Origin: Neocallimastix lanati (nom. inval.)
Lineage: Eukaryota > Neocallimastigomycota > Neocallimastigomycetes > Neocallimastigales > Neocallimastigaceae
DNA length: 60,000 nt
NCBI GenBank assembly: GCA_016946835.1
Contig: JACVTC010000156.1
Span: forward strand, 1-60,000
Direction: 5' to 3'
Positions 7,230-59,027 of the stretch are shown here, piece after piece (the stretch's first letter is position 1; every line of letters starts with the position of its first letter). The notes under the pieces were generated by a model. That model did not search any database. It saw only the letters and a program-made list of their open reading frames with translations, and was not told the origin of the DNA. Made by a program: the position numbers and the translations under genes.

Positions 7230-7247
7230 GTCTTCGTCGGGGCATCT

Positions 7248-7734: not shown

Positions 7735-7786
<52 letters not shown>

Positions 7787-31700: not shown

Positions 31701-32245
31701 TCTTCTTGTAACGGAGGTGCTTCTATTGTAACGGCGGGACGTGGTATAGAAACACAGAAAGGAGAAAACTCAATAGGTTTACACTATCTGTATAAATAAT
31801 TCGTTTTATTAGAAATATTTTTTATTAATTATAAAATTTAAAATAATTATTAATATTAATCAACAAGGTAATATTTCGAATTACTTATACGTTAATTATT
31901 ATTAATAAAAGCACGAAGAAAAATATTTTCATTCGTGAAGTTCGCACTATTTATACTTTTAACGGAAAAACAGTTTTAACATGTAAAAATAATTTTAAAG
32001 AAATATTTAGAAATATGTTTGTAATAATTAATAATGTAAAGTTTCTAGAATATAGATTTTAATTGATGAAAATGAATCTTATCAAAAAAGAATAAAATAA
32101 TTTATATAATAAGAATTTCTAAATTCATTTCGGTTGAATTACGAACCGAAAGAGTCTTTAACTTTCTATAATTTTATACAGAAAGAATATTCAAGAAGAT
32201 ATTATTAATAATTAATAAAATAATTAATAAAATAATTATTAATGC
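31701..32245. other. AT-rich stretch without a recognised gene
   Basis: TTGTAACGG occurs twice within about 30 bp (31706 and 31739 region), followed by a GC-richer patch (GGCGGGACGTGGTATAG). A perfect 8-bp inverted repeat TTTCGGTT/AACCGAAA lies near 32127-32151. It may hold an LTR whose ends I could not define. Confidence 0.5.
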
Positions 32246-32250
32246 AAAAA

Positions 32251-32323
32251 TAGTTTGAGGTGTGAGTCGAACCCATGAAGTATTGGTCATGGTCAATGTA
32301 ACTAACCATTGAACCAAAGTTCT
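32251..32323 (-). tRNA. Degenerate tRNA-like gene
   Basis: On the minus strand an A box (TGGTTCAATGG, 32316-32306) and a B box (GGTTCGACTCA, 32273-32263) sit at nearly exact tRNA spacing. The implied length is 73 nt, and a T5 run (32250-32246) follows at once, as in Pol III genes. The acceptor strands (AGAACTT and TCAAACT) do not pair beyond two bases and the T stem is imperfect. The central ATTGACCATGACCAAT resembles a decayed anticodon arm, possibly CAU. It is best read as a tRNA pseudogene or tRNA-derived sequence. Confidence 0.4.
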
Positions 32324-32339
32324 AATTTTACTAACTGGA

Positions 32340-33044
32340 TGATCCGGAACTAGCTTATTTACTTCAAATAAGCATACATAAAAATGGTAAAAAAGAAAAA
32401 AATATAAAATATTTATAATAATGAAATTATTTAAAATTAAAATAGTTATAATAAAAAAAAAATTTATTTATAATAAAATTATTTATAATAAGAATAATTA
32501 TCTATAAATTGTTTTTAATAAAATAAATACAGAAATATTTAATTCTGTATAAAATTAAATCGATTGACAATACTAACTATTATTTTTATTGTTTTCTCTA
32601 AAATAGATTATTATTTTCTGTATTCTTTTTACAATAATAAACTTTATGAGAATATAATATTAATAATTTACAAGAATATTAAATTATATATTAATTGATA
32701 AATTAAAACATTATTAGAATAGATAGTTAAAATTTTAAATATAAATAAATCATTAATAATTATACAACTATATTTTAAAATAGATACTTTAGAATAGGTT
32801 AATTTTAAAATATATTAATATTAAAATAACATTCATAATAGAATAATATAAATAAATGTATATGTTAATGTTCAATTCAAGATTCATGTAAAAAACTATA
32901 AAAGAAAGAAATTTTCTTTCTTTTGAAAAGGACAACAATAAAATAAAATAAAAATTTATAAAATACTTTTAAACTAATAAAAATTTATTTATATTATTTA
33001 ATATTGTGTTTTTAAAATATTGTGTGTGATCTGTGCCCATATCA
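32340..33044 (+). repeat. 5' LTR of element B
   Basis: TGATCCGGAACTAGC...GTGCCCATATCA, 705 bp, same length as the 3' copy. Confidence 0.96.
32897..32924 (+). promoter_or_regulatory. TATA box and adjoining palindrome in the B LTR
   Basis: TATAAAAG (32897-32904) runs into AAAGAAAGAAATTTTCTTTC, a near-perfect palindrome extending to 32924 and placed about where transcription should start. The 3' LTR carries the same block near 40071-40098. Confidence 0.55.
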
Positions 33045-33049
33045 GAAAT

Positions 33050-33066
33050 TGGTGGAGAATCCGGGC
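33050..33066 (+). other. Primer-binding site of element B
   Basis: TGGTGGAGAATCCGGGC, 5 nt after the LTR, identical to the site of element 2. Confidence 0.86.
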
Positions 33067-33132
33067 GCACACACAAAAATATGAAATAAACACATAAATT
33101 AATATTATAAATAATAGATTTTTTTATATTTT

Positions 33133-33230
33133 GTTTCAGAGGAAACAAAGATTTTATTTTTTTTTAAGAAGTTTCAGAGGAAACTTAAATTTATTATTTT
33201 TATTACTTTTGTAAAAGTTTCAGAGGAAAC
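33133..33230 (+). repeat. Three GTTTCAGAGGAAAC hairpins in the B leader
   Basis: Copies at 33133-33146, 33171-33184 and 33217-33230. Each is a GTTTC/GAAAC stem with an AGAG tetraloop, the stem lengthened by flanking AA/TT in the second and third copies. Confidence 0.88.
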
Positions 33231-33280
33231 TTATTTTAAATTTACTTTTTTATTAAATCTTTCGTTTATATTTTTTATTA

Positions 33281-33333
<53 letters not shown>

Positions 33334-33480
33334 TTTTATTAGTTTTCTCATAAAAATATTTTGTGTGGCATAAGATATTGTTACACAATCTTTATATTTT
33401 TAAATAATATTTTTATTAAAAAAAAAAATAATAATAAAATTTTTTATTTTTATATTATTAAATAATTATTTTTATATATA

Positions 33481-33524
<44 letters not shown>

Positions 33525-33723
33525 TTTTTTTCAATTTTATATTATTAAATAATTTTTTTTTTCTCAATTTTATATTATTAAATATTTTTTATAAAAAAAT
33601 ATATATATATTCAATTTTATATTATTAAATAACCTTTTTATAAAATATATATATATATATTTTTCTCAATTTTATATTATTAAATAACTTTTATTTATAA
33701 AAAAAAAAAAAATTTATTTTAAG
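33231..33723 (+). other. A/T-homopolymer leader of element B
   Basis: Contains A runs (33282-33329, 33483-33521) and five copies of a TTTTATATTATTAAATAA motif between 33449 and 33690, ending immediately before the gag ATG. No ORF. Confidence 0.7.
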
Positions 33724-34971
33724 ATGAAAATCAGTGAAATTTCCCGTATGATTCCTAGATTAGGAAATCATGATAGGGATATAGAAAGTTGGGCCGAGGA
33801 GTTCCAAAGAATTATGGAACTTGCTAACATTGAGGAACCAAAAAGGATTTTCGCGTGGGCAAAAGTGTGCGTTCAGGGACGTCTTAAGGGTATACTCGAA
33901 GACCTTAAGACTATAGATGGTGATGATGTTACTTATCCCAATATTAACGAAATGAAAACTGCTATTGAAGATTATCTGGAGGTTACCCAACAAGAAAAAT
34001 GCTTTAATTTAAAGGCACTCAAAATAAGAAGAAACGAAACTATTAGGGATTTTAATTGGAGATATAATAACTTACATAATTCATTAAACCCTGAATCCCA
34101 GGAATTTATCACAATTAAAGATTATTGTAATTCTATATCAAGTAGACCTTTTGCCAGAACCCAAGTAATTACTGCTCAACCAGATACACTTGAAGAGGCA
34201 CTCCAAACTGCTGAATTAGCCGAAAATGCAACTGAAGCACCAAACATTCCGAATAACATAATAATGGCTCTGGGAAATGAAAATAATAGTTTTCAATACA
34301 ATCCTTATTATATGCCCAATAGCTCTCCTTTTAATTTCTTACACAATAATCCTTATTATGACACTTTTGATAATAACATAAATCCCGTCCTTTATACTAA
34401 TAATAAATCCTTCAATATTCCTAATAACAATGAAAATATGAATTATAGATATAATAGAAAATATAATAATTATTATAATACTTATTCTAATCTTTATAAT
34501 AATAATGAATACAATAACCGATTTAATCACGGATTAAACAATAACAATTCTCAATATGACCCTTATAACAATTATTATAATAATAATTTTAATAATTTTG
34601 ACAGTTACTATAGGAACAATTTCAATAATAATTATTTGAAAAATGATAATAATCTTAATAAAATTAATAACTTCAATAATACGAGATATAATAGTAATAG
34701 CAATAATAATATTAATAATGAAAGATTCCTCACAAACAATGTAAACAATGATAGGAATTTGAATAAACAAGCTAAAAATAATAATTATAATAATGTCAAT
34801 AATAACAATTATATTAATAATAATAGTAAAACATTAAAATGTTTTAAATGCAATCAATTCGGACATAAATTACAAGATTGTCCATATTCTTATCGTGAAT
34901 TAGCCATAATGGAAGAAGAAGGAAAGCTTAGTATCAATAATATTAATAATAACAATAAGCCTTTAAACTAA
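33724..34971 (+). CDS. gag: Gag of element B
   Basis: 415 residues from an ATG. Residues 1-170 form the capsid-like domain shared with element 2 and C (RMIPRLGNHDRDIESW, EEPKRIF, TYPN, LKALKIRRNE). A long Asn/Tyr-rich tract follows (residues 185-370), then a CCHC knuckle (CFKCNQFGHKLQDC). It ends KPLN* right after U UUA AAC. Expected role: particle assembly and RNA binding. Pol follows in the -1 frame. Confidence 0.93.
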   Translation: MKISEISRMIPRLGNHDRDIESWAEEFQRIMELANIEEPKRIFAWAKVCVQGRLKGILEDLKTIDGDDVTYPNINEMKTAIEDYLEVTQQEKCFNLKALKIRRNETIRDFNWRYNNLHNSLNPESQEFITIKDYCNSISSRPFARTQVITAQPDTLEEALQTAELAENATEAPNIPNNIIMALGNENNSFQYNPYYMPNSSPFNFLHNNPYYDTFDNNINPVLYTNNKSFNIPNNNENMNYRYNRKYNNYYNTYSNLYNNNEYNNRFNHGLNNNNSQYDPYNNYYNNNFNNFDSYYRNNFNNNYLKNDNNLNKINNFNNTRYNSNSNNNINNERFLTNNVNNDRNLNKQAKNNNYNNVNNNNYINNNSKTLKCFKCNQFGHKLQDCPYSYRELAIMEEEGKLSINNINNNNKPLN

Positions 34972-34995
34972 TTAATGGGAGAAGGAATACTCCCA
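34962..34995 (+). promoter_or_regulatory. Probable -1 frameshift signal, element B
   Basis: TTTAAAC (34962-34968), 7-nt spacer starting with the gag TAA (34969-34971), stem TGGGAG (34976-34981) with CTCCCA (34990-34995), 8-nt loop. Same geometry as A and C. Confidence 0.88.
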
Positions 34996-35221
34996 GAAAT
35001 CAAACCTATTCACATCAACCAATAATTCATACTATACAAGACCCTTCTGAACAGGAAATTGTTGCTGCGGCCATTAGAAAAACAAAAAATAAAATTGATA
35101 ATACACCTTATCATCATAAAACGATTAAAGAAAACTTATTATCAAACCCGCAACCTATTAAAATTCCTGCTAATAATAATACGATGGAAATGGAAATGGA
35201 TAACGTTAATAATGATAATAA

Positions 35222-35273
<52 letters not shown>

Positions 35274-35289
35274 TATAATAAAAATAATA

Positions 35290-35332
<43 letters not shown>

Positions 35333-35354
35333 TAATAATAATAATACTGATAAT

Positions 35355-35387
<33 letters not shown>

Positions 35388-38300
35388 GATAATTATAATA
35401 ATAATAGTACGATTAGTTTTAGTAATAAAGAGAATAATAATACCAACGACATTTATAATTCAAATATTCTTGGGAATACTGAATCCTTAAAAATTTTAGA
35501 TCCATCTATTATTAGTCAACCTTCTATTCAGAAAACAAAACAAAAAAGCAAAAAACAAAGGGCAAAAGAAATTATTGAATTAGCTAAAGAGATAGAACTA
35601 CCTAGCCAAAAGAAACAAGAAAATAATGATATCAATAATAATAGTAATAATAATATAAAAAAAAAAGTAAAAATAATAGGTGATCAAAAACGATATGACA
35701 TAGTACATGATGTAGGAGATACTGTAGCCAACATAACAATTGGACAATTACTAGATTTGAATCCTAAATTAAGAACAGAATTGTCTAAATCTCTTAAGCT
35801 AACAACGATGACTACAATTAATGAAGCCATTTATAACGAAGAAGATATATTATCAACTATTAAACAAGATAAAATAGTAAAAACTCATGGAAGAGTTGAA
35901 GGAGTTGATACAATTATATACTTAGATTCATGTTCTAGCATTAACTTAATTACTAAAAGTTTTCTAATAAGAAATAACATAAATATAAGTCCTTTATCAC
36001 AGATAAAAGAAACTTTTCTTCAAGCATTCAATAATGAAACCATAGTCTCCAAACTTTTCGAGATTGAAATAACCATAGGAGATATTACTCTTAAAGAAAT
36101 TTTCAGACTCATTGAAAAAGATGATATATTTAATGTATTAATTGGTGTTGATACTTTGAGACATATGAAATTGATTATCAATTTTACAGACAATAATTTA
36201 TATCAAAAATTAGACGATATTAAAAAAATTGGAAGTATTGAAAATGTTTCTACCCTTCATTACGAGGAATTTAATAACGATTTTAATGATCTAAATTCCA
36301 ACGATAATGTAAATGAAATAAATTATTTGAAAGGAAATAATAGTAATGAATTATATTGTGATAATAAAAACAATAATTTAAATAAAAATAATGGTTTAAA
36401 TAAAAATAATGGTTTAAATAAAAATAAGAATTCGAATAAAAGTAATAATTTCAATAAAGAAAATGGTTTAAATAATGGCTTAAATAAAAATGAGAACTTC
36501 AATAGAAATATTAAACCGAATAACAATAAAAATTCTCTTAATTTAAATGAAGATATTGATTTAGATAAAAATAAAAATTTAACTAATAATAATAATAATA
36601 TTGACTCAAATGAAAATTTTGACTTTAATATAAATATAAACATAAATAGAAATGATGATTTTATTGATATAAATAAAAATAATGTAATAAATTCGAAAAA
36701 TGAAAATTTCTTAAATAATAATTATATTGAAAATGATGAAGCAGCTATAGAATATCTTTTATGTACCCAAGATCAATACGAGAAGATCTTTATTAATGAT
36801 AATAAGAATAAATCTAAGGAAGAATTAATAGAAGAAATCATTGAGGGAACAGATGAAGACAAAAGACAAGCCCTTAAACAATTATTAGAAAACAACGAAG
36901 AATTTACTAGCTATCAGCACTGATGATTTGGGAAAATCGAAACTATTAGCTCATGAAATTAAGTTAAATCCAAATCAAAAACCTATTAAGCAGAGGAAAT
37001 ATAGAATTGCTGACAAAAAGAAAATGGAGATCTTAAGAGAAGAAATTCAAAAACTCCGAGATAATGGACTCATCGAGCCTTCTCAATCTTCTTGGTCTTT
37101 TCCAGTTGTTCTTGTACCTAAAAATAATGGTACATGGAGAATGTGCGTTGACTATCGGAAGCTCAATGATATCACAGAGAAGGATGCCTACCCATTACCA
37201 TATATTGAAGAAATATTATACTCAGTAGGTAATGATGTAAAATTTCTGTCTACGCTTGATCTATTTTCCGGATTCCACCAGATTCCAATGAAAAAGGAAG
37301 ATAAGGATAAAACATGTTTTACTACCATTTATGGAAATTATAATTTTAAAGTAATGCCATTCGGATTATGTAATGCTCCCGCTACTTTCCAAAGGGAGAT
37401 GAATAGAATATTTTTACCTTTAATAGGAAAATGTATGTTTGTCTACATGGACGATTTAGTAATCTTTTCATGCAGCTTGGAAGAACACTTAAAGAATCTC
37501 CAAGATATTTTCAATATTATCAAAGAAAATGGTCTTAAAGTTAATCTCTCAAAATGTCACTTTTTGAAAAAAGAAGTTCAAGTCTTAGGTCATCTTCTAA
37601 CTACTGAAGGCATTAAAACAGTACAGAAGAAAGTTGATTCAATTAAAATTATGAAATCACCAACTAATTTAACTCAATTACGTTCTTTTTTGGGTGCCGT
37701 GGGGTATTACAGAAAGTTTATTAAAAATTATTCAAGCATTGCTCAACCATTATATAAATTACAGAAGAAAAATACAAAATTTCAATGGACCCAGACAGAA
37801 GAAAATGCTTTCCGTGAACTAAAAGAAAAATTAGTAAAAGCTCCAATACTTAGTTTTCCAAATTTCGATAAACAATTTATAATAAGAACAGATGCATCAT
37901 ATGACGGGTTGGGTGGTGTATTAATCCAAAAAGATAATGAAGGAGTTGAACACCCTATATTTTATGTTAGTCGTACATTAAAGAAATATGAATTAAATTA
38001 TAGCGTAACAGATATCGAAGGAACTGCTGCTTTCTATTGTACAAAAAAATTTAAATCATACCTTAATAGTAATAATTTTAAAACAATTCTTTTTACCGAT
38101 CATAAACCCCTAGTCGGGTTATTTAACAATAACAAAGAACCTAATAACGCTAGACAAATGAGATGGGTTGTTACCTTGAGCATGCTAAATGTCATTGTCA
38201 AATATGAACCTGGAAAGAAAAATGTGGTCGCCGATGCTCTTTCACGATTACCATTAAATAAAGAAGAAAATCAAAAAATTCTAATTACGAATTCCATTAA

Positions 38301-39473
38301 TACAAATAATAATGAAATAAACTTAAGCAAATCAATTAAAGAATTCCTTAAAAGAAAAATTGTAACTATTGATGATGTAAAATATTACAAAGAAAACAAT
38401 AAATTAAGGAAAGTTATTGACGATAAAGAAGAAAAAATTGAACTATTATTATCCGCACATAACGTAGGACATGAAGGTTTTCATAAAACCTATAATAGAT
38501 TGAAGAAGAATTACTATTGGGAAAATATGAGCAAAGATGTGGAAATTCTAGTTAAAACATGTCATCAATGCCAGTTGAATAGACCTCAACCAGCTAATAT
38601 AGGAACTGAAAATCATGCTACTACACCAGAATCCCCTTTTCGTCGAGTTGGTCTAGATATTATTGGTCCCCTCCCTGAAACCAAATCAAAAAACAAATAT
38701 ATTATAGTACTTGTTGATTATTTCACTAAGTGGGTGGAAGCTGAACCACTCATAACTATTGAATCAAATGATGTAATAAAATTTTTAACAAGAGTATTTT
38801 CACGTCATGGTATTCCGGAAGTATTAATTACCGATAATGGACCTCAATTTACTTCAGACACAACGAAAGGATTCTTAGATTTATATGGTGTTTATGTACA
38901 TTACACAAGCACCTATCACCCTGAAAGTAATGGCCAAGTTGAAAACCGAAATCGCGAAATTGGAAAATATTTAAGGTTATTGGGAAACAATCAGAAGGAT
39001 TGGGATGAAATTCTACCAAGTGCACTTTGGGCCCTTAGAACATGCAAAAGTGAAGTTACTAAATTCAGTAGTTTCGAACTTCTTTATGGTAGAACCGATC
39101 TTCAACCTTTCGAGTTATCGTTAGATATAAATGATAGACATATTCATGAAACAACAGAAGAATATTTAATTAGGAAATTTACTACTCATTGGAGATGGAT
39201 TTTAGAAGCTACTAATAATATTAATAATGCTAATAAATTATGGGAAAATAGACGAAGACAAAAAGATTCAATGAAATCTACTTTTGAAAAAGGAGATTTA
39301 GTTTTAATCCGTAATTTTTCCCGCAAAAAACTCGATCCTTATTATATTGGACCTATGAAAATTGTCAAGATGGAATTTAATACAGCAATATTATGTGACC
39401 CACTTACTGGTGAAATTGCTGATAGAAATGTCCATAAGAAAAACCTAATTCATTATTATACATGGCACATTGA

Positions 39474-39492
39474 GACTTCAAGGGACGAAGTC
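39474..39492 (+). promoter_or_regulatory. Conserved 3' hairpin of element B
   Basis: GACTTCAAGGGACGAAGTC, overlapping the last codons of pol, 21 nt from the 3' LTR. Confidence 0.78.
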
Positions 39493-39513
39493 CATAGTTA
39501 AGCGGGGAGATTC

Positions 39514-40218
39514 TGATCCGGAACTAGCTTATTTACTTCAAATAAGCATACATAAAAATGATAAAAAAGAAAAAAATATAAAATATTTATAATAATGAAA
39601 TTATTTAAAATTAAAATAGTTATAATAAAAAAAAAATTTATTTATAATAAAATTATTTATAATAAGAATAATTATCTATAAATTGTTTTTAATAAAATAA
39701 ATACAGAAATATTTAATTCTGTATAAAATTAAATCGATTGACAATACTAACTATTATTTTTATTGTTTTCTCTAAAATAGATTATTATTTTCTGTATTCT
39801 TTTTACAATAATAAACTTTATGAGAATATAATATTAATAATTTACAAGAATATTAAATTATATATTAATTGATAAATTAAAACATTATTAGAATAGATAG
39901 TTAAAATTTTAAATATAAATAAATCATTAATAATTATACAACTATATTTTAAAATAGATACTTTAGAATAGGTTAATTTTAAAATATATTAATATTAAAA
40001 TAACATTCATAATAGAATAATATAAATAAATGTATATGTTAATGTTCAATTCAAGATTCATGTAAAAAACTATAAAAGAAAGAAATTTTCTTTCTTTTGA
40101 AAAGGACAACAATAAAATAAAATAAAAATTTATAAAATACTTTTAAACTAATAAAAATTTATTTATATTATTTAATATTGTGTTTTTAAAATATTGTGTG
40201 TGATCTGTGCCCATATCA
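39514..40218 (+). repeat. 3' LTR of element B
   Basis: 705 bp with the same TGATCCGGAAC and CCATATCA ends. Followed by TGAA and then directly by the E LTR. Confidence 0.96.
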
Positions 40219-40222
40219 TGAA

Positions 40223-41241
40223 TGGTAAAGAATGAATTAATAACCTTTATTTTATTATTAATAATTCTTTACTAAATTGTACTTTCCTATATTCTTGATA
40301 ACCTAAACTTAATAATAAAATTTAATTAATTTTGATATAAATTAATTTTAACTTGTAAATAATGTAAATAAATTTTAATTAATTACTTTATTGTTATATT
40401 ATTAAATATATGTATATATTAAAATACAATTGTAAATATTAAAATTATACTTTTAAAATACTAAATTATTAAAAACTATTAATTAAATATTATTATAAAA
40501 ATTATTATAAAATTATTAAAATTATTAATTAAATATTATTATAAAAATTATTATAAATTATTAATATTATAAAATTATTAAAATTATTAAATATTATTAT
40601 AAAAATTTATTTATTATAACTATTAAATATTATTATAAAATTATTAAGATTATTAATTAAATTTATTATTAAAAATTATTATTAAAAATTATTACTTATT
40701 ATAAAAATTATTATTTTAATATTATCAAATTTATTAATATAATATTATAAAAATTTTATTTTATTTTGAAAATAATTACAAGTATTATTTAAAATAATTA
40801 AAGATTATTAAATTTATTATATTAATCTTTAAAAACAATTTATTTAACTTAAAAATATCAAAGAAAATAGTAAAAACTATTTTCTATATATTTATTTTAT
40901 AATTATTTTTAATTAAATTATATTTGAATATTATATTATTATATTTATAAAAATTAAAACAAAAATGAATTATTGATATAAAATTAATTCAATAATTCTA
41001 TAAAATCACTTAAATTATAAACAATTAATTATACTTTAAATTTATAAAAAAATATAAATATTGTAACAATTTCTTAAAAATTAATATGTGTACTTTAAAT
41101 AATAAAATTTTATATTAATAAAAAAATAAATAACTTTTAATAAAGAATTATTTTTATTTTTTTATTTAAAATCAAAGCAGGGTAATACCCGTCCCCCCCT
41201 GCTTGATTTTAAATATCTAAGTGTCAACCCCGAGTCTACCA
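40223..41241 (+). repeat. 5' LTR of element E
   Basis: TGGTAAAGAATG...CCGAGTCTACCA. A 17-18-bp stem near its end (41165-41182 with 41197-41213, TTTAAAATCAAAGCAGGG against CCCTGCTTGATTTTAAA) is preserved in all three E-type LTRs. Confidence 0.96.
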
Positions 41242-41245
41242 AAAT

Positions 41246-41262
41246 TGGTGGAGATATCGGGG
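41246..41262 (+). other. Primer-binding site of element E
   Basis: TGGTGGAGATATCGGGG, 4 nt after the LTR, identical to that of element A. Confidence 0.86.
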
Positions 41263-41627
41263 AAGAAGAAGAAGTAGAAGAAGAAGAAGAAGAAGTAGAC
41301 CAAGTGGAAGAAGACCAAGAAAAAGAAGACCAAGAAGAAAACCAAGAAGAAAACCAAGAAGAAGACCAAGAAGAAGACCAAGAAGAAGACCAAGAAGAAA
41401 ACCAAGAAGAAAACCAAGAAGAAGACCAAGAAGAAAACCAAGAAGAAGACCAAGAAGAAAACCAAGAAGAAGACCAAGAAGAAAACCAAGAAGAAAACCA
41501 AGAAGAAAACCAAGAAGAAGACCAAGAAGAAGACCAAGAAGAAGAGACCAAGAAGGAGAAGACCAAGAAGGAGAAGACCAAGAAGGAAATTGGAACTACT
41601 AGGACTTATTTTTTTTTGGAATTATGA
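41263..41627 (+). repeat. GAAGAAGACCAA-type minisatellite with an acidic repeat ORF
   Basis: Directly after the PBS, GAAGAA and GACCAAGAAGAA units repeat for about 340 bp. From ATG 41304 they encode 107 residues of EEDQ/EENQ repeats ending in KKEKTKKE and GTTRTYFFLEL. The frame has no homologue in element A and may be a by-product of the repeat; the minus-strand Ser/Trp frames are shadows. An acidic leader peptide is possible but unsupported. Confidence 0.6.
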
Positions 41628-41679
41628 GAATAATTTTTTTTTTAAATTAAATTTAATAGAATTAAATTAAATTAAATTA

Positions 41680-41741
<62 letters not shown>

Positions 41742-42373
41742 CACACTTTTACAATCATCATCATCAAATTTTTTTATTGTTATCGGTTTTTGTGTCGTTG
41801 TTGTGGTTGGTGTTGTTGTTGTGATTGTTGTTGTTGTGGTAGTAATAAAAATTAACATCAGTTTTATTTGGTCTTCGCGTGCTCCAAATAAAACTATATA
41901 CTGAGTTTACTGCGTACTAAGCAGTTATAGATAATTCTATAATTGCGAGTGGTTTAATCAGGTGTTTGGAGAGGGGCCGGTTACGAACTAATCGAACCCC
42001 GATTAGATATAGCGGTAAATACTGTTGGGAAGCAGAAATTACCCTATAGATCACCCATTATACGTTCAACACGGTTTGGGTGCTCCTCCACTTGACTCAG
42101 GCAAATTCACTTAGTATACCGAAATACTAAGGTCCCTCTGCGTGGTCGGCAGTTGTAATAGATAGCGGTTTTTCAAGTTGTATTAGGTTTGTTAATTTAC
42201 CTTGTTTTTAATTAAGTTTATTTGTTTTTTTTAAGTTGTAATTATATAAACTTAATAATAATTGTAATTGTAATTGTAAATATTGTAATAATAACCGATA
42301 ACAAATAAATAAAAAAAAAAAAAAAAAAAAAATAATAATATTAATTTTTGTGTTTTTAAATATTTTTAATTGC

Positions 42374-42405
<32 letters not shown>

Positions 42406-42723
42406 TTTTTTTTGTAAATAATTGTATATATTTTTTATTTAAGTAAAGATAAACGAAAGGGGTTATTAGCTTGAAAGAATAGTGAACACTCCAACTAGTT
42501 TATTAATTTATATTTATTCTAGTGTCCAGGAGGGGGAGTACGGGTGTATATAGCAAAATTAAATATACACTAGCCGGAAACGTCTCACTAGAGATATAAA
42601 TTACTTAAATATATAATTTTAATTGTAAATAAATAAATAAATAAATAAAAATATAGCAATTAAATAATTAATAAAACAATTTTTTTTATTTTATTTTTTT
42701 TTTAAAAGTGTGTTTTTTTTAAA
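41628..42723 (+). other. Structured leader of element E
   Basis: An A49 run (41689-41737) and other A runs flank a GC-richer block (41860-42180). It holds perfect hairpins: CTAATCG/CGATTAG with an AACCC loop (41988-42006) and CTTAGTAT/ATACTAAG with a 6-nt loop (42110-42131). Another GC-richer patch lies at 42450-42600. No credible ORF, and no detailed sequence similarity to the A leader. Confidence 0.6.
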
Positions 42724-43662
42724 ATGAGTACAATTAATTTTAAAGATTTAAAAAAGGAACTTAAGGATATTGAAAAAATATCCAAAGAAAATTTAGATGT
42801 TAAAACTTGGAAGTCTGATTTAGAGCTTTGGATAAAGCTTGAACATGTTGAAGACTCCAAGATTATATTTTATGCCTGTGTTTTAACCTCAATTGGTGAA
42901 ACCAGGAAAGTCATCCAAGAATTAATGGATGATAATAATAAAGATGATGATAGTGATGATGATGGTGATGATGATGATAATTATAAGGATATTAATGATG
43001 AAGATGAGGATGATGATAATGAAGAAGATAAAGAAATTGATAAAAAGAATAAGGCTTATCCTTCCCTTAATAGAATTGTAAAAGCTATAGAAGAATTTTA
43101 TGGCATTAGGGAGGATCAAAATAATTTATTAAGAGAGCTACGTGCTCTAAGAATTAAGAGGAATGAAAGAATCAAAGATTTTAATATTAAGTATAAAACT
43201 TTATATTTAAAATTAAATAAAAAGAAAAGAAGTCAGATAAGTGTTTTAGATTACACAGACTCCATTGAAAACAATGTTGAAGCCTGGAAACGTCTAACCT
43301 TATTTGATATCATTTCTCTGTCAAAAGCCTTTAAAATTGCTGAAAAAGCAGATAGGTTAAATTATATGGGTAGTAATCAAAGAAGACATCCTTCTACCCC
43401 TTCACCTTCTGCAAATACATCTTCTTTTAATAATAGAGTTAATTTTCATCCTCCTATTAAAAATAAATTAGAACAAAAAGTTAATATTAAACCTAAAGAA
43501 GATAATGACATAGAGGAATTAACAAGAAAAATGAGAAGTTTAACAATAAAGGCTTGTTATTTCTGTAAAGAACCAGGTCATTATCAAAACAATTGCCCAA
43601 AGTTGAGAGCAATTGTTGAGAAAAATAGGAAGGAAATTAGAAATAATAAACGTTTAAATTGA
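42724..43662 (+). CDS. gag: Gag of element E
   Basis: 312 residues from ATG (MSTINFKDLKKEL), collinear with the A gag. An Asp-rich acidic tract lies at about residues 74-105 (coded by GATGAT repeats), followed by the conserved FYGIREDQNNLLRELRALRIKRNE-type region and a CCHC knuckle (CYFCKEPGHYQNNC). It ends NNKRLN* immediately after U UUA AAU. Role: particle and RNA binding. Confidence 0.93.
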   Translation: MSTINFKDLKKELKDIEKISKENLDVKTWKSDLELWIKLEHVEDSKIIFYACVLTSIGETRKVIQELMDDNNKDDDSDDDGDDDDNYKDINDEDEDDDNEEDKEIDKKNKAYPSLNRIVKAIEEFYGIREDQNNLLRELRALRIKRNERIKDFNIKYKTLYLKLNKKKRSQISVLDYTDSIENNVEAWKRLTLFDIISLSKAFKIAEKADRLNYMGSNQRRHPSTPSPSANTSSFNNRVNFHPPIKNKLEQKVNIKPKEDNDIEELTRKMRSLTIKACYFCKEPGHYQNNCPKLRAIVEKNRKEIRNNKRLN

Positions 43663-43687
43663 GTAATGGGATAAGAAGCTCTCCCAT
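43653..43687 (+). promoter_or_regulatory. Probable -1 frameshift signal, element E
   Basis: TTTAAAT (43653-43659), gag TGA (43660-43662), then stem ATGGGA (43666-43671) with TCCCAT (43682-43687). Compared with A, B and C the heptamer ends in T, the spacer is 6 nt, and the stem has gained a base pair at its foot and lost one at its top. Confidence 0.83.
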
Positions 43688-46600
43688 ACTTAATAAAGCA
43701 GCTTCACTTAAATATCAAAAAGAAATTAAAAATTCTCGTCTTTCTAATATTGAAGAAACTCCTGCTAATAAAAGGGTGGTTAATAAAAAGAAAGTTGATT
43801 ATTTAGTAGGAGCATCTAAACGTAAAATTTATGATGTTAATAATGATGAAGGTAGTGCAGAGAAAAGGATTCATAAGTCGTTGAAGGAGAATCCTAAACC
43901 TATAATAACTCCTGCATTACGAAAACAGAAAGAACGAGAAGTAAAAGAAAATAATATAAGTAATAAAATTGTTAAACAAATTAAACCATCTATTCTAGCT
44001 CAACCACGAATTGAAAAAGAAAAAGAGATTGAAAGAAAAATTCGTGATAATGAAAGAGCTAGCAATAGTAATACTAATTATAGTAATAATCATAGTAATG
44101 ATAATAGTAATGATAATATTAATAATAATTCATTAGTGAATGATGAAGTTATTATAAATAATGTAAATAATGATAAAAGAAAGAATAAAAATTTAATGAA
44201 AGAAACTAATGATAATAATAAAAGTATTGTGAAGGAGAATAATAAAATAATTGATTTAACAAAGGTGTTAATTAGTAAAGATAAAGATACTCAAAAAGAA
44301 AATAAAAGTTCTAGAGTATCTAGGAAAATTAAGATGCAATCGGGGGAAGAAGAATATGATATTCTTAAAGATTTAAATTCTGCCCATTGCAATATTACTT
44401 TTGGACAGTTATTGGATGCTGCTCCAAAATTAAGATATAAGGTGTCACAGGGTATTAAATTGGATAGGGACCAATCTAATATCTCTGGGGTGTTGGATAA
44501 TGTGTCAGCCACGACTGTGGTCGTTAATAACATAGACCACACTTATAAAAGTAAAGGTAACGAACCATGTGAAGAGGATATTGCCATGGTTGATGTTACA
44601 GTTGAAGGTGTTTCGGGGAAGGCTTTAATTGATTCATGTAGTAATTTAAGTATAATTACTCAACAATTTTTAGATAAGCTTCCGTCCGAATATGAACCTA
44701 TTGATATTAGTCGTGGCAGAATTAGGTTGGCAACTAAGAATGATGATTACTCGGAAGGTTATATCATTCGGGTGCCAGTAAAGATTAATAATCTTGTATT
44801 AATGGTTAATTGTAGAATAGTAGAAAAGGAGGATCCTTTTTACGATATTCTAATTAACTTAAAAACCCAAATTGATTATAATTTGTTTATCCACCCCATT
44901 TTATATAGTTTGTGTCAAATTACTCCTGAGGGAGTAATTGACCTTATTGCACCTATTAATAATGATTATGAAGATGAAGAAAAGTTGTTGTGTATGATTA
45001 AGGCTTTGGATGAGGATTCCAAAAAGAATGATTTAAAGAAAATTGAAGGATTATTCCCAAAGCAATATATTCATCATGAAATTTTCCTAAATACTTTAAA
45101 CGAAAAATATAAAGATGAAATAATTAAAATTCTGGAGGAGAACTTAGAAATAGTTGCTACTTCTTCAGAAGAATTAACACCTTCTGATCTTCCTCCACAT
45201 AGGATTAATTTAATTCCTGGTGCGAAACCAGTTAAGCAAAGGTGCTATAGATTAGTTAAATTTAAGTCGGATATACTTAAGGAGGAATTAATTAAATTAA
45301 TTAATAAGAAATTAATTGAACCTTCTTGTTCCGAATGGTCATCGCCAATAGTGTTAGTACCGAAGAAGAACGGTAAATGGCGATTATGTATTGATTATCG
45401 TAAGGTTAATGATTTAACAGTTAAAGATTCTTATTCATTACCTTACATTGATGAGATATTTGATAGTTTAGATGGGGCACAGATTTTTACAACAATGGAT
45501 CTTTATTCTGGTTATCATCAAATTTTGATGGATGAGGAAAGTGTAGAAATTACCACCTTCACCACAAAATTTGGTAACTACCAATTCAAGGTTATGCCTT
45601 TTGGTTTAACCGGAGCCCCAGCTACATTTCAAAGGGAAATGAATAGGATTCTTTTCCCATTTATAGGAAAGTTTGTTTTTAACTTTATAGATGATATTTT
45701 AATATACTCTAAGAGTATAGAAGAACATATAAGCCACATTAGGCAAGTGTTGGAAGTATTTCGCCAACACAAATTGAAAATTAACATTGAAAAATGTGCC
45801 TTTATGCAGACTGAAGTAGAAGTCTTAGGTCATAAGGCATCAGTGAAAGGTTTAAGTCCCCAGGATAGCAAAATTAAGGCTATCAAGGAGTGGGTAGCAC
45901 CTGTTGATGTTCATGAATTACGATCTTTTCTTGGAGCAGTAGGATATTATAGAAACTTTATTGATAAATATGCTCAAATCTCTGCTCCTTTATGTAAATT
46001 ATTAAGAAAGAATGTTAAATATAAATGGAATACTGAACATCAACAAAGTTTTGATCTGTTAAAAGAAAAGTTAATAAATGCTCCAATTTTAAAATATCCA
46101 AGTTTTAATCAAAGGTTTATAATTAGAACGGATGCTTCCTATGAAGGTATTGGAGGAGTATTACTCCAAGAAGATTTAGAAACTAAAAGGGAACATCCAG
46201 TTCATTATATAAGTAGAAGTTTAAGTAAAGCCGAGAAAAATTATGGCATTACTGACTTGGAAGGAGCTGCATTAATTTATTGTATTACTAAGTTGAAATC
46301 TTATATATTAGGAAATCCTAATAAAACAGTAGTAATAACAGATCATAAACCTTTAATCAGTTTCTTTAAAAATAAGGAACCTAATAATGCTAGGCAAGCA
46401 AGGTGGTGCTTAACTGTTAGTACCCTTGGTGTTGAAATTCAATATCAAATGGGTAAGAAAAATGTGTTAGCCGATGCATTATCTAGGATGAAGAAAAGAG
46501 ATGATTCTGTGGTATTGGCAACTAAGTTAACTTCAAAGGAAGAAGAAGAGTTGCTTTCTAAAACTATTAAAGACTTTATAAATGAAAAATTTGTTACGAT

Positions 46601-47708
46601 AGATGGTGAAGATTACTTTGTTGATGGTAATGACTATCGTAAATTAATTACTGATCAAACGGAAAGAATAAAACTTATTTTAGAAGCCCATAAGATAGGT
46701 CATGAGGGATATTATAAGACTTATCAAAGGCTTCGTAAAAGTTTTTATTGGAATAATATAGTGATGGATATTAAAAGAGTGGTGCAAAGTTGTGACAAGT
46801 GTCAGTTGAATAGGTCACAACCATATCCAGAACCTACAGAAAATATTCCAACTAAAGTAGAAGGTCCTTTTATACATTTGGGTTTAGATATTATTGGACC
46901 TTTGATTAAAACGAAAAATAATAATCAATATATTATGGTTGTGGTGGATTACTTCACCAAATGGGTTGAAGCAGAACCCACGGAAAATATAACATCACAG
47001 GATGTGATTAAGTTCTTAATTAATGTGTTTGCTCGTCATGGTGTTCCACAGGTAATAACAACTGACAATGGTGTTTAGTTCACCTCGGACATGACGAAAA
47101 TATTTTTAGATCTCTATGATGTATATGTGAAGTTTATTTCCACATATCATCCAGAAAGTAATGGACTTACGGAAAACCGTAATAAAGAGATCGGCAAGTT
47201 ATTGAGGTTGTTGGGTTCTAAGAATAAGGATTGGGATGAAGTTTTACCATCCGCCTTATGGGCTCTTAGAACTACCAAAAATAAGGTAACAAAACATTCA
47301 AGTTTTGAGTTGGTTTATGGTAGGGAAGATCAGCAGCCTTTTGATATTGCCGCTAGACCTACCAAGGATATTAATAAGTCATCGGATGAAGTGTTGTTAG
47401 AAAAATTTATAAATCATTACCGATGGACTTTAGAAGCAGCCGAAAATGTTAAAAATGCAAATAAGTATTGGGCTGCTAGAAGAGAGGAAAAGAATAGTTT
47501 GAATGAAGGAAAAAGAATTAGGGAAGGTGATTTAGTTCTAGTTAGAAATTTTTCAAGAACTAAACTAGAACCTTATTTTGTTGGTCCTCTTAAAGTTATA
47601 AAAAAACAATTTAATACGGTTACCTTGGCTGATCCAAATTCTGGAATTCAAATGAATAGGAATGTTCATTTGAAGAATATAGTCAAGTATAACTCAGCTT
47701 CGATGTAG
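43653..47708 (+). pseudogene. pol: Pol of element E, nonsense codon in the integrase
   Basis: The -1 frame is open from the slippery site to 47075, interrupted by TAG (47076-47078), and continues to 47708 in the same frame. Domains: N-terminal linker, protease (LIDSCSN, D codon 44631), RT (FIDD, 45684-45695), RNase H (RTDAS, TDHKP, ADALSR), integrase HHCC and D,D,E, and a VGPLKVIKK module. The TAG replaces the Gln of TTDNGVQF, as a single C-to-T change would, between the second Asp and the Glu of the active site. Protein ending there would lack the catalytic Glu. No chromodomain. Closest to A pol. Confidence 0.92.
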
Positions 47709-47731
47709 CTTGAGTTTTAGAGGGGGCATCA

Positions 47732-48750
47732 TGGTAAAGAATGAATTAATAACCTTTATTTTATTATTAATAATTCTTTACTAAATTGTACTTTCCTATA
47801 TTCTTGATAACCTAAACTTAATAATAAAATTTAATTAATTTTGATATAAATTAATTTTAACTTGTAAATAATGTAAATAAATTTTAATTAATTACTTTAT
47901 TGTTATATTATTAAATATATGTATATATTAAAATACAATTGTAAATATTAAAATTATACTTTTAAAATACTAAATTATTAAAAACTATTAATTAAATATT
48001 ATTATAAAAATTATTATAAAATTATTAAAATTATTAATTAAATATTATTATAAAAATTATTATAAATTATTAATATTATAAAATTATTAAAATTATTAAA
48101 TATTATTATAAAAATTTATTTATTATAACTATTAAATATTATTATAAAATTATTAAGATTATTAATTAAATTTATTATTAAAAATTATTATTAAAAATTA
48201 TTACTTATTATAAAAATTATTATTTTAATATTATCAAATTTATTAATATAATATTATAAAAATTTTATTTTATTTTGAAAATAATTACAAGTATTATTTA
48301 AAATAATTAAAGATTATTAAATTTATTATATTAATCTTTAAAAACAATTTATTTAACTTAAAAATATCAAAGAAAATAGTAAAAACTATTTTCTATATAT
48401 TTATTTTATAATTATTTTTAATTAAATTATATTTGAATATTATATTATTATATTTATAAAAATTAAAACAAAAATGAATTATTGATATAAAATTAATTCA
48501 ATAATTCTATAAAATTACTTAAATTATAAACAATTAATTATACTTTAAATTTATAAAAAAATATAAATATTGTAACAATTTCTTAAAAATTAATATGTGT
48601 ACTTTAAATAATAAAATTTTATATTAATAAAAAAATAAATAACTTTTAATAAAGAATTATTTTTATTTTTTTATTTAAAATCAAAGCAGGGTAATACCCG
48701 TCCCCCCCTGCTTGATTTTAAATATCTAAGTGTCAACCCCGAGTCTACCA
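47732..48750 (+). repeat. 3' LTR of element E
   Basis: 1019 bp, same ends as the 5' copy, with the terminal hairpin at 48674-48722. Followed by TGAA. Confidence 0.96.
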
Positions 48751-48756
48751 TGAAGA

Positions 48757-49734
48757 TGTAATAATCATACTAAGTTCTATCACTAAATATGATTATTAAC
48801 TTCAACTTAATGACTAATTCATTAAGTTGAGAAATAAAATAAAAATAAAAATATTACCTAAAAAGAGAGTTTATTATAAAATTAATTATAATAACAACAC
48901 AAAATGTAAAAGAAGGAATATTTATATAAATTTGGTTTTAAAAAATATGTTTTTGAATAAAATGTTTTATTAATTTATTAAAGTTTAAAATATAAAATTG
49001 CTATTATTATAACTATATTTTTATAATAATAACTCTTGATTTCTTAAAGGGAAATCAAGAGCCTTATTTATATTTTTTTATGGAAATAAGGTTAAATAAA
49101 AAGGTTTTCTAATCTTAAAAAATATCTTATCTAGAAAAAGATTAGAAGAAAAAACTAGATAAGTTTTTTGATCGATATTCTATTCATATCGATCATCGTA
49201 TATATTAAGTAAAACCAAATATATTATTTTATATTTGGATAAAACCTTAATATATCGATTTCCTAAATTTTAATTTAGATCATCTAATAAAAGGAAAAAT
49301 CAATAATAACCGGAATGATCTAAATTATTCTATTCTATCTTTCTAAATATTATTTTTAAAATCTAATCTAAACTTATTAACATAAAACTATCTTTAAACT
49401 AGAATACAGAATTATAAAAAATACAGAAACTTATTAATTGTTCTTTTAAATGTACAATGTAAAAAATAAATAAAACTAATGTTTACATTAACTTGATAAT
49501 TAAATGAATAACTAAATAAAATTAATAATATTAATAAGTGTGCATATAATAATTATTTAAATAAATTTTCTAATGTTATTTAAGTGTATGAATAATTACA
49601 ATTATAATAAATTTGATAATAATATCTCAATGTATGAATTAATTATAATTTAAATAAATTTATAATTATTATCAATAATTATAAAGACTAAGAAATAATA
49701 ATTATTTATTAGTAAATAATTATTATTTCTTACA
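48757..49734 (-). repeat. F-type solo LTR, target duplication GAAGA
   Basis: TGTAATAATCATAC...TTTCTTACA, homologous to 14827-15737, flanked by GAAGA at 48752-48756 and 49735-49739. Orientation is inferred from the TATA box and CTCTTGATTTC/GAAATCAAGAG hairpin near 49030-49070. It begins 6 nt after the E LTR. Confidence 0.85.
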
Positions 49735-50244
49735 GAAGATTTCGTTACATGGTGTAAAATATTTAATAATTTGAATACGTATTTAAATGTAATGTAATGT
49801 AAATTATTGTAATTATTGTGGATAAAAATGTTTTCCAAATTTTTAATATAAATTTAAATGTATTCCAAATTATTAATTTAAATAATTTTCTCAAAAATGT
49901 ATGACTAAATTATTTGGGGAATTTACATCATTATTACTCACTTTGAATCATGAAACTTTGTAAATTAAAAATAATTAGTCATGAAACTTGTAAATTAAAA
50001 ATAATTAGTCATAAATTAGTTAAATTAAAATAATCAAAGAAAAATTGCCTTTTCCGTTTGTTTACAAAAACTTGCCGTTTTGTTTATTTATTTTTAGAAA
50101 TATTAGATAGTTTGAAATAGTTTTTATATTAAAATAACTCATAAAAATTCATGTAATTTATTATTAAATGTAATTACAAATATATAATAATATTTTAGTT
50201 AGTTTATTACAATCTATTCAATTTAAATTTTAATTTTCAAAAAG

Positions 50245-50253
50245 TATAAAAAG
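50245..50253 (+). promoter_or_regulatory. TATA box of element G
   Basis: TATAAAAAG, 34 nt upstream of the self-primer sequence at 50279. Confidence 0.65.
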
Positions 50254-50278
50254 AGTTAATTTTCAACTATTGAACGAT

Positions 50279-50289
50279 AGTTGGAAAAT
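50279..50289 (+). promoter_or_regulatory. Probable self-primer at the RNA 5' end
   Basis: AGTTGGAAAAT lies where transcription should begin and is the exact reverse complement of ATTTTCCAACT at 50733-50743. Known precedent: Tf1 of fission yeast primes with the first 11 nt of its own RNA. Confidence 0.7.
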
Positions 50290-50732
50290 AGTATAGAAAA
50301 TAGTATAGAAAATAGTATAGAAAATAGTATAGTTTAGTTAGAAAATAGAATAGTATAGGAAATATTATAGATAAGATAGATAGTACAAATTTTATATTTT
50401 AATAATTAGTATTATAACTATTATTAGAATAGTTATTTTTTTTTATAAAACAAATTTTATTTTAAATTTTATTTTAAAATCTTAACTGCTAGTAGGCTTT
50501 CCGGTAAAGGACCCTACGGTACCCAGTTAAGTGATTGTTGATTTGAGAATAGTTAAATTCAATAAATAAGAAATATTAATAAAAGGATTTTCTTTATAAA
50601 ACAAAAAATTAAATTAGTTTTTTTTTGTTTTAGTGTTTTAGTTAATTATTAATTATAGTGTTGATATAATAAAATAGTGTAAAATAAGTAATAGTCTATC
50701 CTCGCCGACCTAAACTATTAGTTTATTTTACA

Positions 50733-50743
50733 ATTTTCCAACT
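50733..50743 (+). other. Self-complementary primer-binding site of element G
   Basis: ATTTTCCAACT starts at the first base after the 5' LTR and pairs perfectly over 11 bp with 50279-50289. Pairing stops on both sides, giving the same length as in Tf1. Confidence 0.72.
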
Positions 50744-50891
50744 CGTTAGATTAGTATAGTTTACCTTTGTGTAGGATAGCCTAGTAATAGTATAAAAAAA
50801 AAAAAATTTTTTTTTTTGAAATAATAATTAAAAAGTGGATTTAGTAATACTTTATAGTTTAATTTATAGTTTAATAAATAATAATAATAAA

Positions 50892-55223: not shown

Positions 55224-55256
55224 GTCGCTCAGGGGCTCGACTTAAACAGAGGGGCA

Positions 55257-56236
55257 TGTAAAATATTTAATAATTTGAATACGTATTTAAATGTAATGTA
55301 ATGTAAATTATTGTAATTATTGTGGATAAAAATGTTTTCCAAATTTTTAATATAAATTTAAATGTATTCCAAATTATTAATTTAAATAATTTTCTCAAAA
55401 ATGTATGACTAAATTATTTGGGGAATTTACATCATTATTACTCACTTTGAATCATGAAACTTTGTAAATTAAAAATAATTAGTCATGAAACTTGTAAATT
55501 AAAAATAATTAGTCATAAATTAGTTAAATTAAAATAATCAAAGAAAAATTGCCTTTTCCGTTTGTTTACAAAAACTTGCCGTTTTGTTTATTTATTTTTA
55601 GAAATATTAGATAGTTTGAAATAGTTTTTATATTAAAATAACTCATAAAAATTCATGTAATTTATTATTAAATGTAATTACAAATATATAATAATATTTT
55701 AGTTAGTTTATTACAATCTATTCAATTTAAATTTTAATTTTCAAAAAGTATAAAAAGAGTTAATTTTCAACTATTGAACGATAGTTGGAAAATAGTATAG
55801 AAAATAGTATAGAAAATAGTATAGAAAATAGTATAGTTTAGTTAGAAAATAGAATAGTATAGGAAATATTATAGATAAGATAGATAGTACAAATTTTATA
55901 TTTTAATAATTAGTATTATAACTATTATTAGAATAGTTATTTTTTTTTATAAAACAAATTTTATTTTAAATTTTATTTTAAAATCTTAACTGCTAGTAGG
56001 CTTTCCGGTAAAGGACCCTACGGTACCCAGTTAAGTGATTGTTGATTTGAGAATAGTTAAATTCAATAAATAAGAAATATTAATAAAAGGATTTTCTTTA
56101 TAAAACAAAAAATTAAATTAGTTTTTTTTTGTTTTAGTGTTTTAGTTAATTATTAATTATAGTGTTGATATAATAAAATAGTGTAAAATAAGTAATAGTC
56201 TATCCTCGCCGACCTAAACTATTAGTTTATTTTACA
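55257..56236 (+). repeat. 3' LTR of element G
   Basis: 980 bp, apparently identical to the 5' LTR, preceded by AGAGGGGCA and followed by CATGG. Confidence 0.96.
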
Positions 56237-56561
56237 CATGGTCCGCCTCCAGGATTCGGATACCAGACGAATCTAACAGTTAGGCATAACTTATACTAAA
56301 ATTAAGCAAACTAAACTAAACTAAACTAAATTAAAATAAAATAAAATAAAATAAAAATAATTAATTAACCATTTTATAGTACGAACTTTTTTGAATAAAA
56401 TTACATGATATTAATAAAGTTACATGAATATAATGTATAATAAGAATACATGAATATTAATAATATTTAATAATATAAAATAATATTTAGTAATATTGAT
56501 ATTAATAAATTAATATAAGTTTGATATTAATAAAGTAAAGATTCATTTTCAAGTTTTAATT
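56237..56561. other. Residual locus sequence right of element G
   Basis: 56237-56292 is about half G+C (CATGGTCCGCCTCCAGGATT and onward), unlike everything around it. It is followed by CTAAA and AAAAT microrepeats and AT-rich DNA. The patch begins on the G duplication, so it continued the left flank before G inserted. Origin unknown: host exon, tRNA-related sequence or element remnant. Confidence 0.4.
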
Positions 56562-57215
56562 TTAGTTATTTTTGTTAAATTCTTTTAAGAGTTTAGGGCA
56601 ATTTAAATTTTCTTCGGGTTCCCAAGATGCTTCAGATAAAGGATAGCCTTTCCATTTAATAAGATATTGGGTTTTGCCATAATGTTTTCTTTTATCAAGA
56701 ATTTTTTCAACTTCGTATTCTTCTTCATTGTCAATAATTACCGGTGGTGGTGGTTCTTTCTTTCGTCCAAAGTGATCTTAATAAAATGGTTCAAGTTCAG
56801 AAACATGTATTACAGGATGGATTTTGATTTCTTTTGGTAAGTCTAACTTATATGAAACATGAGAAATTTTCTTAATGATTTTATATGGACCAAGTTTTCT
56901 GGGTTTAAGTTTTTTATTTCCATTATGAATTATAAGTGAACTATTAATCCACACTTTATCACCAGATTCAAAATTTGGAGCTTCAATACGATGTTTGTTT
57001 GCAAATTCTTCTTGCTTTTTTCTTGCTTGTTGTAAATTTCCATTAAGTGTTTTAAATAATTCTGAAAGGTCTTTTGTAAATTCATCAGCTCTAGGAACAT
57101 CTGTACTGTTTGGAATTGATGGTGAATATCTTGGATTATATCCATAGTTTGCATAAAAAGGTGAGTGCTTAATTGATTCTTGAATTGAATTATTATAACT
57201 GAATTCTGCTAGGAA
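56562..57215 (-). pseudogene. H integrase C-terminus with GPY/F module and chromodomain
   Basis: Continues the integrase from FLAEFSYNNS through HSPFYANYGYNPR, a GDKVW segment and LGPYKI, then HPVIHVSELEPFY, where TAA (56780-56778) interrupts it; CAA is the likely ancestor. After the stop the frame continues with a proline run and a clear chromodomain ([27 protein letters not shown]) ending at TAA 56564-56562. Chromodomains direct integration to modified histones in chromoviruses. It is joined to the upstream part by a frameshift near 57215. Confidence 0.85.
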
Positions 57216-58599: not shown

Positions 58600-58660
58600 C
58601 TTGGCTTCTTCATTCCAAGAAGATTCATCGGCGTATTTATTAAATTCTAAAATTTATATT

Positions 58661-59014: not shown

Positions 59015-59027
59015 ATTGGGATGAAGT

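Follow-up and report, generated by a model that had tools for sequence, protein, structure and literature searches.

Retrotransposons of several lineages integrate at sites defined by RNA polymerase III (Pol III). The Ty3/gypsy elements Ty3 of Saccharomyces cerevisiae, Ylt1, Tyl3, Tyl6 and Tca8 insert at Pol III start sites (PMC5911963), and Tj1 is placed with Ty3 among the Ty3/gypsy elements that target these sites (PMC4600332). The Dictyostelium LTR element DGLT-A is found 13-33 bp upstream of tRNA genes, on average 15 bp (PMC5006619), whereas for TRE5-A, A and B boxes in Dictyostelium rDNA that lack any other tRNA context act as targets at tRNA-gene distance (PMC5391098). The literature searched, including the table in the consulted part of PMC5911963, yielded no instance of Pol III-directed targeting in anaerobic gut fungi. 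The searches also produced no matching case of Pol III boxes in long terminal repeats (LTRs) or of nested hotspots at tRNA sites.

We analysed 60,000 nucleotides of Neocallimastix lanati (contig JACVTC010000156.1, positions 1 to 60,000; the window). They include a copy of H, a repeated chromovirus of this AT-rich genome, whose LTR has received other retrotransposons. The main part of the H LTR lies at 31707..32335 on the minus strand, which is its sense strand, and is interrupted after 32335. It matches the 643-bp LTR of sibling H copies at 98%, with LTR boundaries taken from copies L005 and L006. The right target-site duplication (TSD) of element G and then the H internal region occupy 56237..60000 (minus strand), with a partial ORF at 57193-58599. 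Copy L006 carries a chromodomain C-terminal to integrase (PF00385, 1.4e-18), which places H among the chromoviruses. Residues 565-649 and 1233-1423 of G align to adjoining parts of the L006 ORF, so reverse transcriptase (RT) and RNase H, which an autonomous retrotransposon would need complete, are absent from it; the window copy, the other of the two compared with G, aligns likewise. Nearly all of the 40 H copies scored stand at about 97%. A 31-nt H core, with up to 2 mismatches, occurs 270 times genome-wide against 0 for the reversed pattern, and the 48-nt LTR start has 137 copies at a different mismatch limit.

The target of the insertions is a 19-bp stretch formed by the first 16 bp of the H LTR (sense strand) and 3 bp of adjoining internal sequence. 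A reading of this DNA made from the letters alone (the sequence-only reading) had placed four insertions here, and LTR pairs and TSDs bear this out, far beyond chance. TGGA (32336..32339) is the left target copy of B, a plus-strand Ty3/gypsy element at 32340..40218 (LTRs 32340-33044 and 39514-40218, 1 mismatch in 705). Its right copy, TGAA (40219..40222), agrees at 3 of 4 bases and is also the left copy of E, a plus-strand Ty3/gypsy element at 40223..48750 (LTRs 40223-41241 and 47732-48750, 1 mismatch in 1019) with TGAA on both sides. TGAAGA (48751..48756) contains the right TSD of E overlapping the left TSD, GAAGA, of F. The latter is a solo LTR at 48757..49734, with GAAGA on both sides and related LTRs in L026, L066 and L068. 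This TSD corresponds to bases 2-6 of the target and not to bases 3-7, as had been supposed. At 49735..49749 the minus-strand sequence GAAGATTTCGTTACA holds the right TSD of F and, continuing from it, the sense start of the H LTR. CATGG (49748..49752), the left TSD of G, straddles the LTR edge and the adjoining internal sequence. G, a plus-strand Ty3/gypsy element, spans 49753..56236 with identical 980-bp LTRs (49753-50732 and 55257-56236) and has CATGG on both sides. The earlier argument that the youngest LTR pair, that of B, lies nearest the gene fails, since LTR divergence (1/705 for B, 1/1019 for E) gives no age order between the two.

Element A, at 1..8109 on the plus strand, has both its LTRs and belongs to family X, which invades the H site most often elsewhere; its LTR starts are identical to those of X. 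Pfam finds Ty3/gypsy RT, RNase H and integrase in X (element A), B, E and G, and a PDB search with the pol of B and of G returned Ty3 as the best match for each. X, E and B form one clade and G belongs to another. For the chromodomain, Pfam found none in B and gave a match below the cut-off in G. Both 4-bp and 5-bp duplications had been thought to converge on one landmark. Both lengths do occur at the site, 4 bp for X (in L078), E and S and 5 bp for F. The 5-bp duplication of G, from the other clade, lies at the LTR edge, off the main site, and G may follow another rule.

The supposed minus-strand tRNA-like gene turns out to be a module inside the H LTR. It consists of an A-box-like motif, TGGTTCAATGG (32306..32316, minus strand; +1 by tRNA numbering at 32323), a B-box-like motif, GGTTCGACTCA (32263..32273, minus strand; 10/11 to GGTTCRANTCC), and a T-run that is a possible Pol III terminator (32246..32250, minus strand; T5 here, T4 in the siblings compared). 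A strict A plus B box pattern has its single match in the window at this module, and a looser pattern adds two further window matches, both within coding sequence. ARAGORN in intron-free mode found no tRNA in the window or 110 loci, and Rfam found none in the window or 14 loci, so the tRNA-gene reading was dropped. ARAGORN reported the module only under the relaxed option -ps50, and its minimum-energy fold has no cloverleaf. With its two boxes spaced as in tRNA genes and a T-run after them, the module has the sequence features of a type 2 Pol III promoter, and we regard it as a candidate for such a tRNA-type promoter without a tRNA. TGGTCC, adjoining the LTR edge, was considered as the H primer-binding site and rejected, as the ORF direction places it on the polypurine side.

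The H site is a hotspot well beyond the window. Among the first 100 listed of the 270 H cores, 61 are intact and another LTR has cut into the remaining 39, within 0-8 nt of a single point. The invaders fall into about 12 LTR groups and represent at least 34 independent events. Measured from the A box, the cuts fall 18-26 nt upstream, with 33 of 39 at 20-23 nt; the gap from B box to LTR is 63-66 nt in 33 of 39 (range 61-69). Of the 90 copies retrieved with a longer stretch of sequence, 38 have their cut within the final 17 bp of the LTR and 7 have an LTR that is incomplete elsewhere, one owing to a small insertion and another by 9 bp (binomial 7e-54, with 6 used for incomplete elsewhere). Insertion direction, known for X, E and B, is LTR-start-facing in 20 of 21 cases. 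The empty site that the sequence-only reading had called for exists: 34 of the 100 sibling copies continue across the LTR edge to TGGTCC, and the exact 19-mer is present uninterrupted in 30, these being paralogous H copies and not an empty allele. Three cut copies (L028, L059, L076) retain the A box without a full B box, which is either dispensable or was lost later.

We consider it very probable that these insertions reflect Ty3-like integration guided by Pol III factors and caught by a promoter mimic in the LTR of another retrotransposon, with factor binding inferred. The H LTR carries an A box that lies 35 bp in from the sense start, followed at tRNA spacing by a B box and then by a T-run. 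TFIIIC would bind these boxes and place TFIIIB upstream, where integrases from several Ty3/gypsy families, X, E and B among them, could dock on TFIIIB or Pol III and insert near the start site, as yeast Ty3 does. If A and B boxes guide integrases to a Pol III start in this way, the H LTR would be a mimic that catches other elements, struck in the window three times in series (B, E, F), with G at the LTR edge.

Much the same pattern would arise if the integrases recognised the local DNA around CTGAAGAT with no Pol III complex involved. The H site is nearly identical in every copy, and the three cut copies without a full B box fit such recognition. We nevertheless judge it improbable. H2, a sister family of H with a diverged module, emerged when the loci were scanned for further A/B-box pairs. 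Its insertions (four copies, two suggested by five bases only) lie 21-24 nt from the A box, a spacing similar to that in H, and the sequence at the cut is ACGAATC, unlike H. Moreover, X (6) or E (1) LTR starts face the B box from upstream at 7 of 100 listed B boxes, which stand in for tRNA genes, against 0.048 expected (P 1e-13). The gaps are 65, 65, 65, 64, 65, 76 and 64 nt, six of the seven at 64-65 nt, and no X or E start lies within 150 nt downstream of the 100 listed boxes. Placed by coordinates alone, the seven account for 1 of the 50 E starts and 6 of the 60 X starts listed for the contigs covered; most starts there lie away from a consensus B box, many of them being second LTRs of a pair. 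None of the 13 B-family or 15 G starts is at a listed B box. The non-H flanks of invader LTRs that were examined, many of which are other LTRs or the internal sides of second LTRs, include no clear tRNA gene apart from the H2 module in L036. The scan also gave A/B-box pairs in L015 and L042.

Slightly less probable still is that the LTR edge itself is the hotspot, through open chromatin or LTR-end structure, with the A and B boxes incidental. Most cuts in H do fall 12-15 nt from that edge, and G lies at the edge in 4 of the 100 listed copies as well as in the window. At the opposite end, however, 83 of 90 copies have an LTR complete to within 3 bp, and H2 insertions lie 3-6 nt from the LTR end while keeping their A-box distance; X and E at B boxes likewise speak against an edge effect. 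That a composite of H and an invader was copied by segmental duplication or co-transposition, making few insertions look like many, we regard as very remote. L030/L088 and L037/L098 have flank and junction in common, L045/L092 and L081/L102 may be pairs, and L082/L119 share a junction; even so, the dozen or so LTR groups, several offsets and many different flanks leave the count of independent events at 34 or more. Guidance by Pol III factors remains our preferred explanation. The sequence-only reading had allowed that a failed covariance search together with no enrichment near real tRNA genes would refute it. The covariance search did fail, but X and E cluster a few bp from the Pol III start, with B boxes standing for tRNA genes. 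Its Ty3-like position, about 13-16 bp upstream of a tRNA-type promoter, is supported by repeated strikes in sibling copies and by the same X/E spacing at B boxes.

Compared with Ty3, the most-used target here is a tRNA-like module in the LTR of another retrotransposon, and it is hit by many LTR groups. The Ty3 target duplication is 5 bp, whereas those of X, E and S are 4 bp. As in Ty3, Ty3/gypsy elements lie a few bp upstream of Pol III start sites, X and E about 13-16 bp before +1 versus about 15 bp for Ty3 in the consulted part of PMC5006619. DGLT-A is likewise an LTR element at a comparable distance upstream of tRNA genes, and its description in that part of PMC5006619 has no LTR decoy. TRE5-A resembles the present case in that A and B boxes outside a tRNA context serve as targets; in the consulted part of PMC5391098 it differs as a non-LTR element, 47 bp upstream in one example, whose target is on an rDNA element and not on a mobile element.

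In the one H2 LTR compared, the rest of which cannot be aligned to H, both boxes persist at tRNA spacing, as in H. Tentatively, and somewhat short of probable, the module is a maintained feature of LTRs in the H/H2 lineage, and these chromoviruses may rely on TFIIIC/TFIIIB to express or insulate themselves, acting as decoys. The locus is a likely addition of an anaerobic gut fungus to the cases of Pol III-directed retrotransposon targeting, with a kind of target absent from the literature searched, a tRNA-promoter mimic within the LTR of another mobile element. Hundreds of near-identical H copies with or without insertions amount to a natural saturation experiment that can inform whether an integrase responds to the A box, the B box or the position of TFIIIB, and bears on how nested retrotransposon arrays start. 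If the module is indeed maintained in the H/H2 lineage, H and H2 LTRs would be genome-wide decoy tRNA genes that draw Ty3-like elements away from real tRNA genes and pack them into nests, and one retrotransposon would shape where many others land.

The window, which is 77% A+T, belongs to an assembly of 199 Mb. Four insertions in series were confirmed beside the tRNA-like module (32246-32316, minus strand), as the sequence-only reading had claimed. These are B, E, the solo LTR F and G, with the target duplications TGGA/TGAA, TGAA/TGAA, GAAGA/GAAGA and CATGG/CATGG (left copy 49748-49752), respectively. Five polymerase relatives of B are named among 120 listed, all labelled Orpsp1_1, which we take to be Orpinomyces; an anaerobic gut fungus is therefore the probable host. 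The window also contains a second nest of LTR elements (8110-26705), where GTTG flanks one element on both sides and CAAG another.

The same reading took the landmark beside these insertions for a tRNA-like gene, and it is not a tRNA gene. No tRNA was found in the window by ARAGORN or by Rfam, none among 110 genomic loci by ARAGORN (the module was reported only under a relaxed option) and none among 14 loci by Rfam, while the minimum-energy fold of the module is not a cloverleaf. The stretch is a repeat inside the LTR of the chromovirus H. It is present in 40 scored copies, nearly all at ~97%, and several are paired ~5.3 kb apart. A strict A-box plus B-box pattern has one match in the 60 kb, precisely at the module; a looser pattern adds two matches, both within coding sequence. 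Boundaries taken from loci L005 and L006 give an H LTR of 643 bp with the module at its end, so that the 19-bp target consists of 16 bp of LTR edge and 3 bp of internal sequence. The adjoining coding frame has the opposite orientation, which places the module near the LTR start in the sense of H. The L006 copy carries an integrase tail with a chromodomain, but its ORF skips RT and RNase H: two stretches of G, residues 565-649 and 1233-1423, align to parts of the H ORF that adjoin each other. Further A/B-box pairs beyond H and its sister family H2 occur at L015 and L042, and the L042 pair resembles the H module.

The 31-nt core of H beside the insertion site occurs at 270 places genome-wide (≤2 mismatches) vs 0 for a reversed control. 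Junctions were read in 100 listed cores of the 270, all exact matches: 39 are cut 0-8 nt past the core, 34 continue uninterrupted past the LTR edge into TGGTCC (the exact 19-mer is present in 30 copies) and 27 are intact but end against other flanks. Longer sequence was retrieved for 90 copies; a cut lies within the final 17 bp of the LTR in 38 of them, and seven are incomplete elsewhere (L028, L042, L059, L071, L076, L061, which has a small insertion, and L104, which misses 9 bp); the binomial probability for 38 edge cuts vs six elsewhere (seven seen, six used) is 7e-54. The 48-nt LTR start is found at 137 places (≤3 mismatches) vs the 270 cores (≤2 mismatches), so roughly half of the H copies are cut or diverged there. 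The gap from site to B box is 63-66 nt in 33 of the 39 cuts and 61-69 nt in all; the CTGAA junction corresponds to 66 nt. L028, L059 and L076 hold the A-box side only, joined to other sequence (by eye, resembling a chromovirus pol gene in L076), yet each still has an LTR inserted at the common site.

The 39 cuts represent ~12 LTR groups: X (the family of window element A) 18, the F/J group six, K three, M, E and R two each, and six singles, with L057 and L119 assigned by their LTR starts. Flanks are common to L030/L088 and L037/L098, and L045/L092, L081/L102 and L082/L119 are possible further duplicates; discounting these leaves at least 34 independent insertion events. Direction is known for X, E and B, both LTRs of which lie in the window, and the LTR start faces the module in 20 of 21 such cases (at L049 it is the LTR end). 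Duplications of 4 bp are seen at L078 (CTGA) and L104 (TGAA). At L093, TGAAGA separates the end of an X LTR from a K LTR; this locus too was hit twice in series, as the window was by E and F. Elsewhere (G000:C3:694193-694244), two X LTR starts stand head to head with 4 bp between them, suggestive of two oppositely directed insertions into a single 4-bp site.

Family G lies off this main hotspot, at the LTR edge. A G-type terminus is located 1-3 bp past the edge at L021, L054, L062 and L075 (4 of the 100 listed copies, among the 27 with other flanks); at L062 a partial copy of the G start comes first, and the matched start follows at a distance of 12 bp. G is also at this edge in the window (49748-49752) and, by coordinates, at G000:C57:260857-260859.

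A second module with inserted LTRs occurs in H2. Locus L036 holds an A/B-box pair that is the LTR start of H2, with a J LTR 24 nt upstream of its A box. H2 has 40 scored matches, many paired ~5.6-5.8 kb apart, and its internal side resembles that of H; the two LTRs gave no convincing alignment past the first ~100 bp. The LTR start is kept in 28 of 39 H2 cores and missing in 11. The invader was identified in two of the 11, J at L036 and E on contig C35 (21 nt from the A box). On C201 and C243 the cores read TATCACGAATC, which resembles an insertion of the TGATA type at 22 nt, and the remaining seven may only be diverged. The room between LTR start and A box is 27 bp in H2 vs 35 bp in H; the A-box spacing of insertions is nonetheless kept.

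B boxes of tRNA type were located by coordinates as stand-ins for tRNA genes. The consensus GGTTCRANTCC has 1344 places vs 90 for its reversed control, and LTR starts number 777 (X), 484 (E), 182 (G) and 89 (B) genome-wide. Within 100 listed B boxes of the 1344 (contigs C1 to C25) and 100 listed exact matches each for X and E, at least seven B boxes at putative tRNA genes have an X or E LTR start facing from upstream. The gaps are 65 nt on C2 (E), C10 and C21, 64 nt on C23 and C25, and 65 and 76 nt on C24; the last could reflect a long variable arm or an intron in the tRNA. None of the 100 has a listed X or E start within 150 nt downstream. Whole-genome counts predict 0.048 upstream cases vs the seven seen (P 1e-13). 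The covered contigs list 60 X, 50 E, 15 G and 13 B starts; most of X and E lie away from any consensus B box, and none of G or B is at a listed one, in samples too small to judge. In G000:C24:217498-743985, B boxes form seven pairs spaced 83-85 bp, an arrangement like that of tandem tRNA genes, and G000:C555:170732-399007 has dozens of tRNA genes with near-equal top score, several 530-553 bp apart.

The position, recurrence, spacing and clade of the insertions are directly observed. Pol likeness among X, E and B is 53-65%, and G is closer to H than these are. We propose that TFIIIC would bind the H boxes and position TFIIIB, which the integrases would then use on the model of Ty3. Ty3 insertions lie 1-4 bp ahead of the start and ~15 bp ahead of the mature tRNA (PMC5006619). 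The nearest precedent for a tRNA-less target is TRE5-A, which inserts at rDNA A/B-box loci (PMC5391098). Three cut H copies with no complete B box count against the TFIIIC/TFIIIB reading, which also leaves the G position unaccounted for. The recurrent H site, and X and E 64-65 nt (once 76) from B boxes, support the claim of Ty3-like insertion upstream of a tRNA-type promoter; in H this landmark is a module in an LTR instead of a tRNA gene. Our verdict is Ty3-like targeting, often directed at a promoter mimic that another retrotransposon carries, in a host group probably not previously listed for such targeting.
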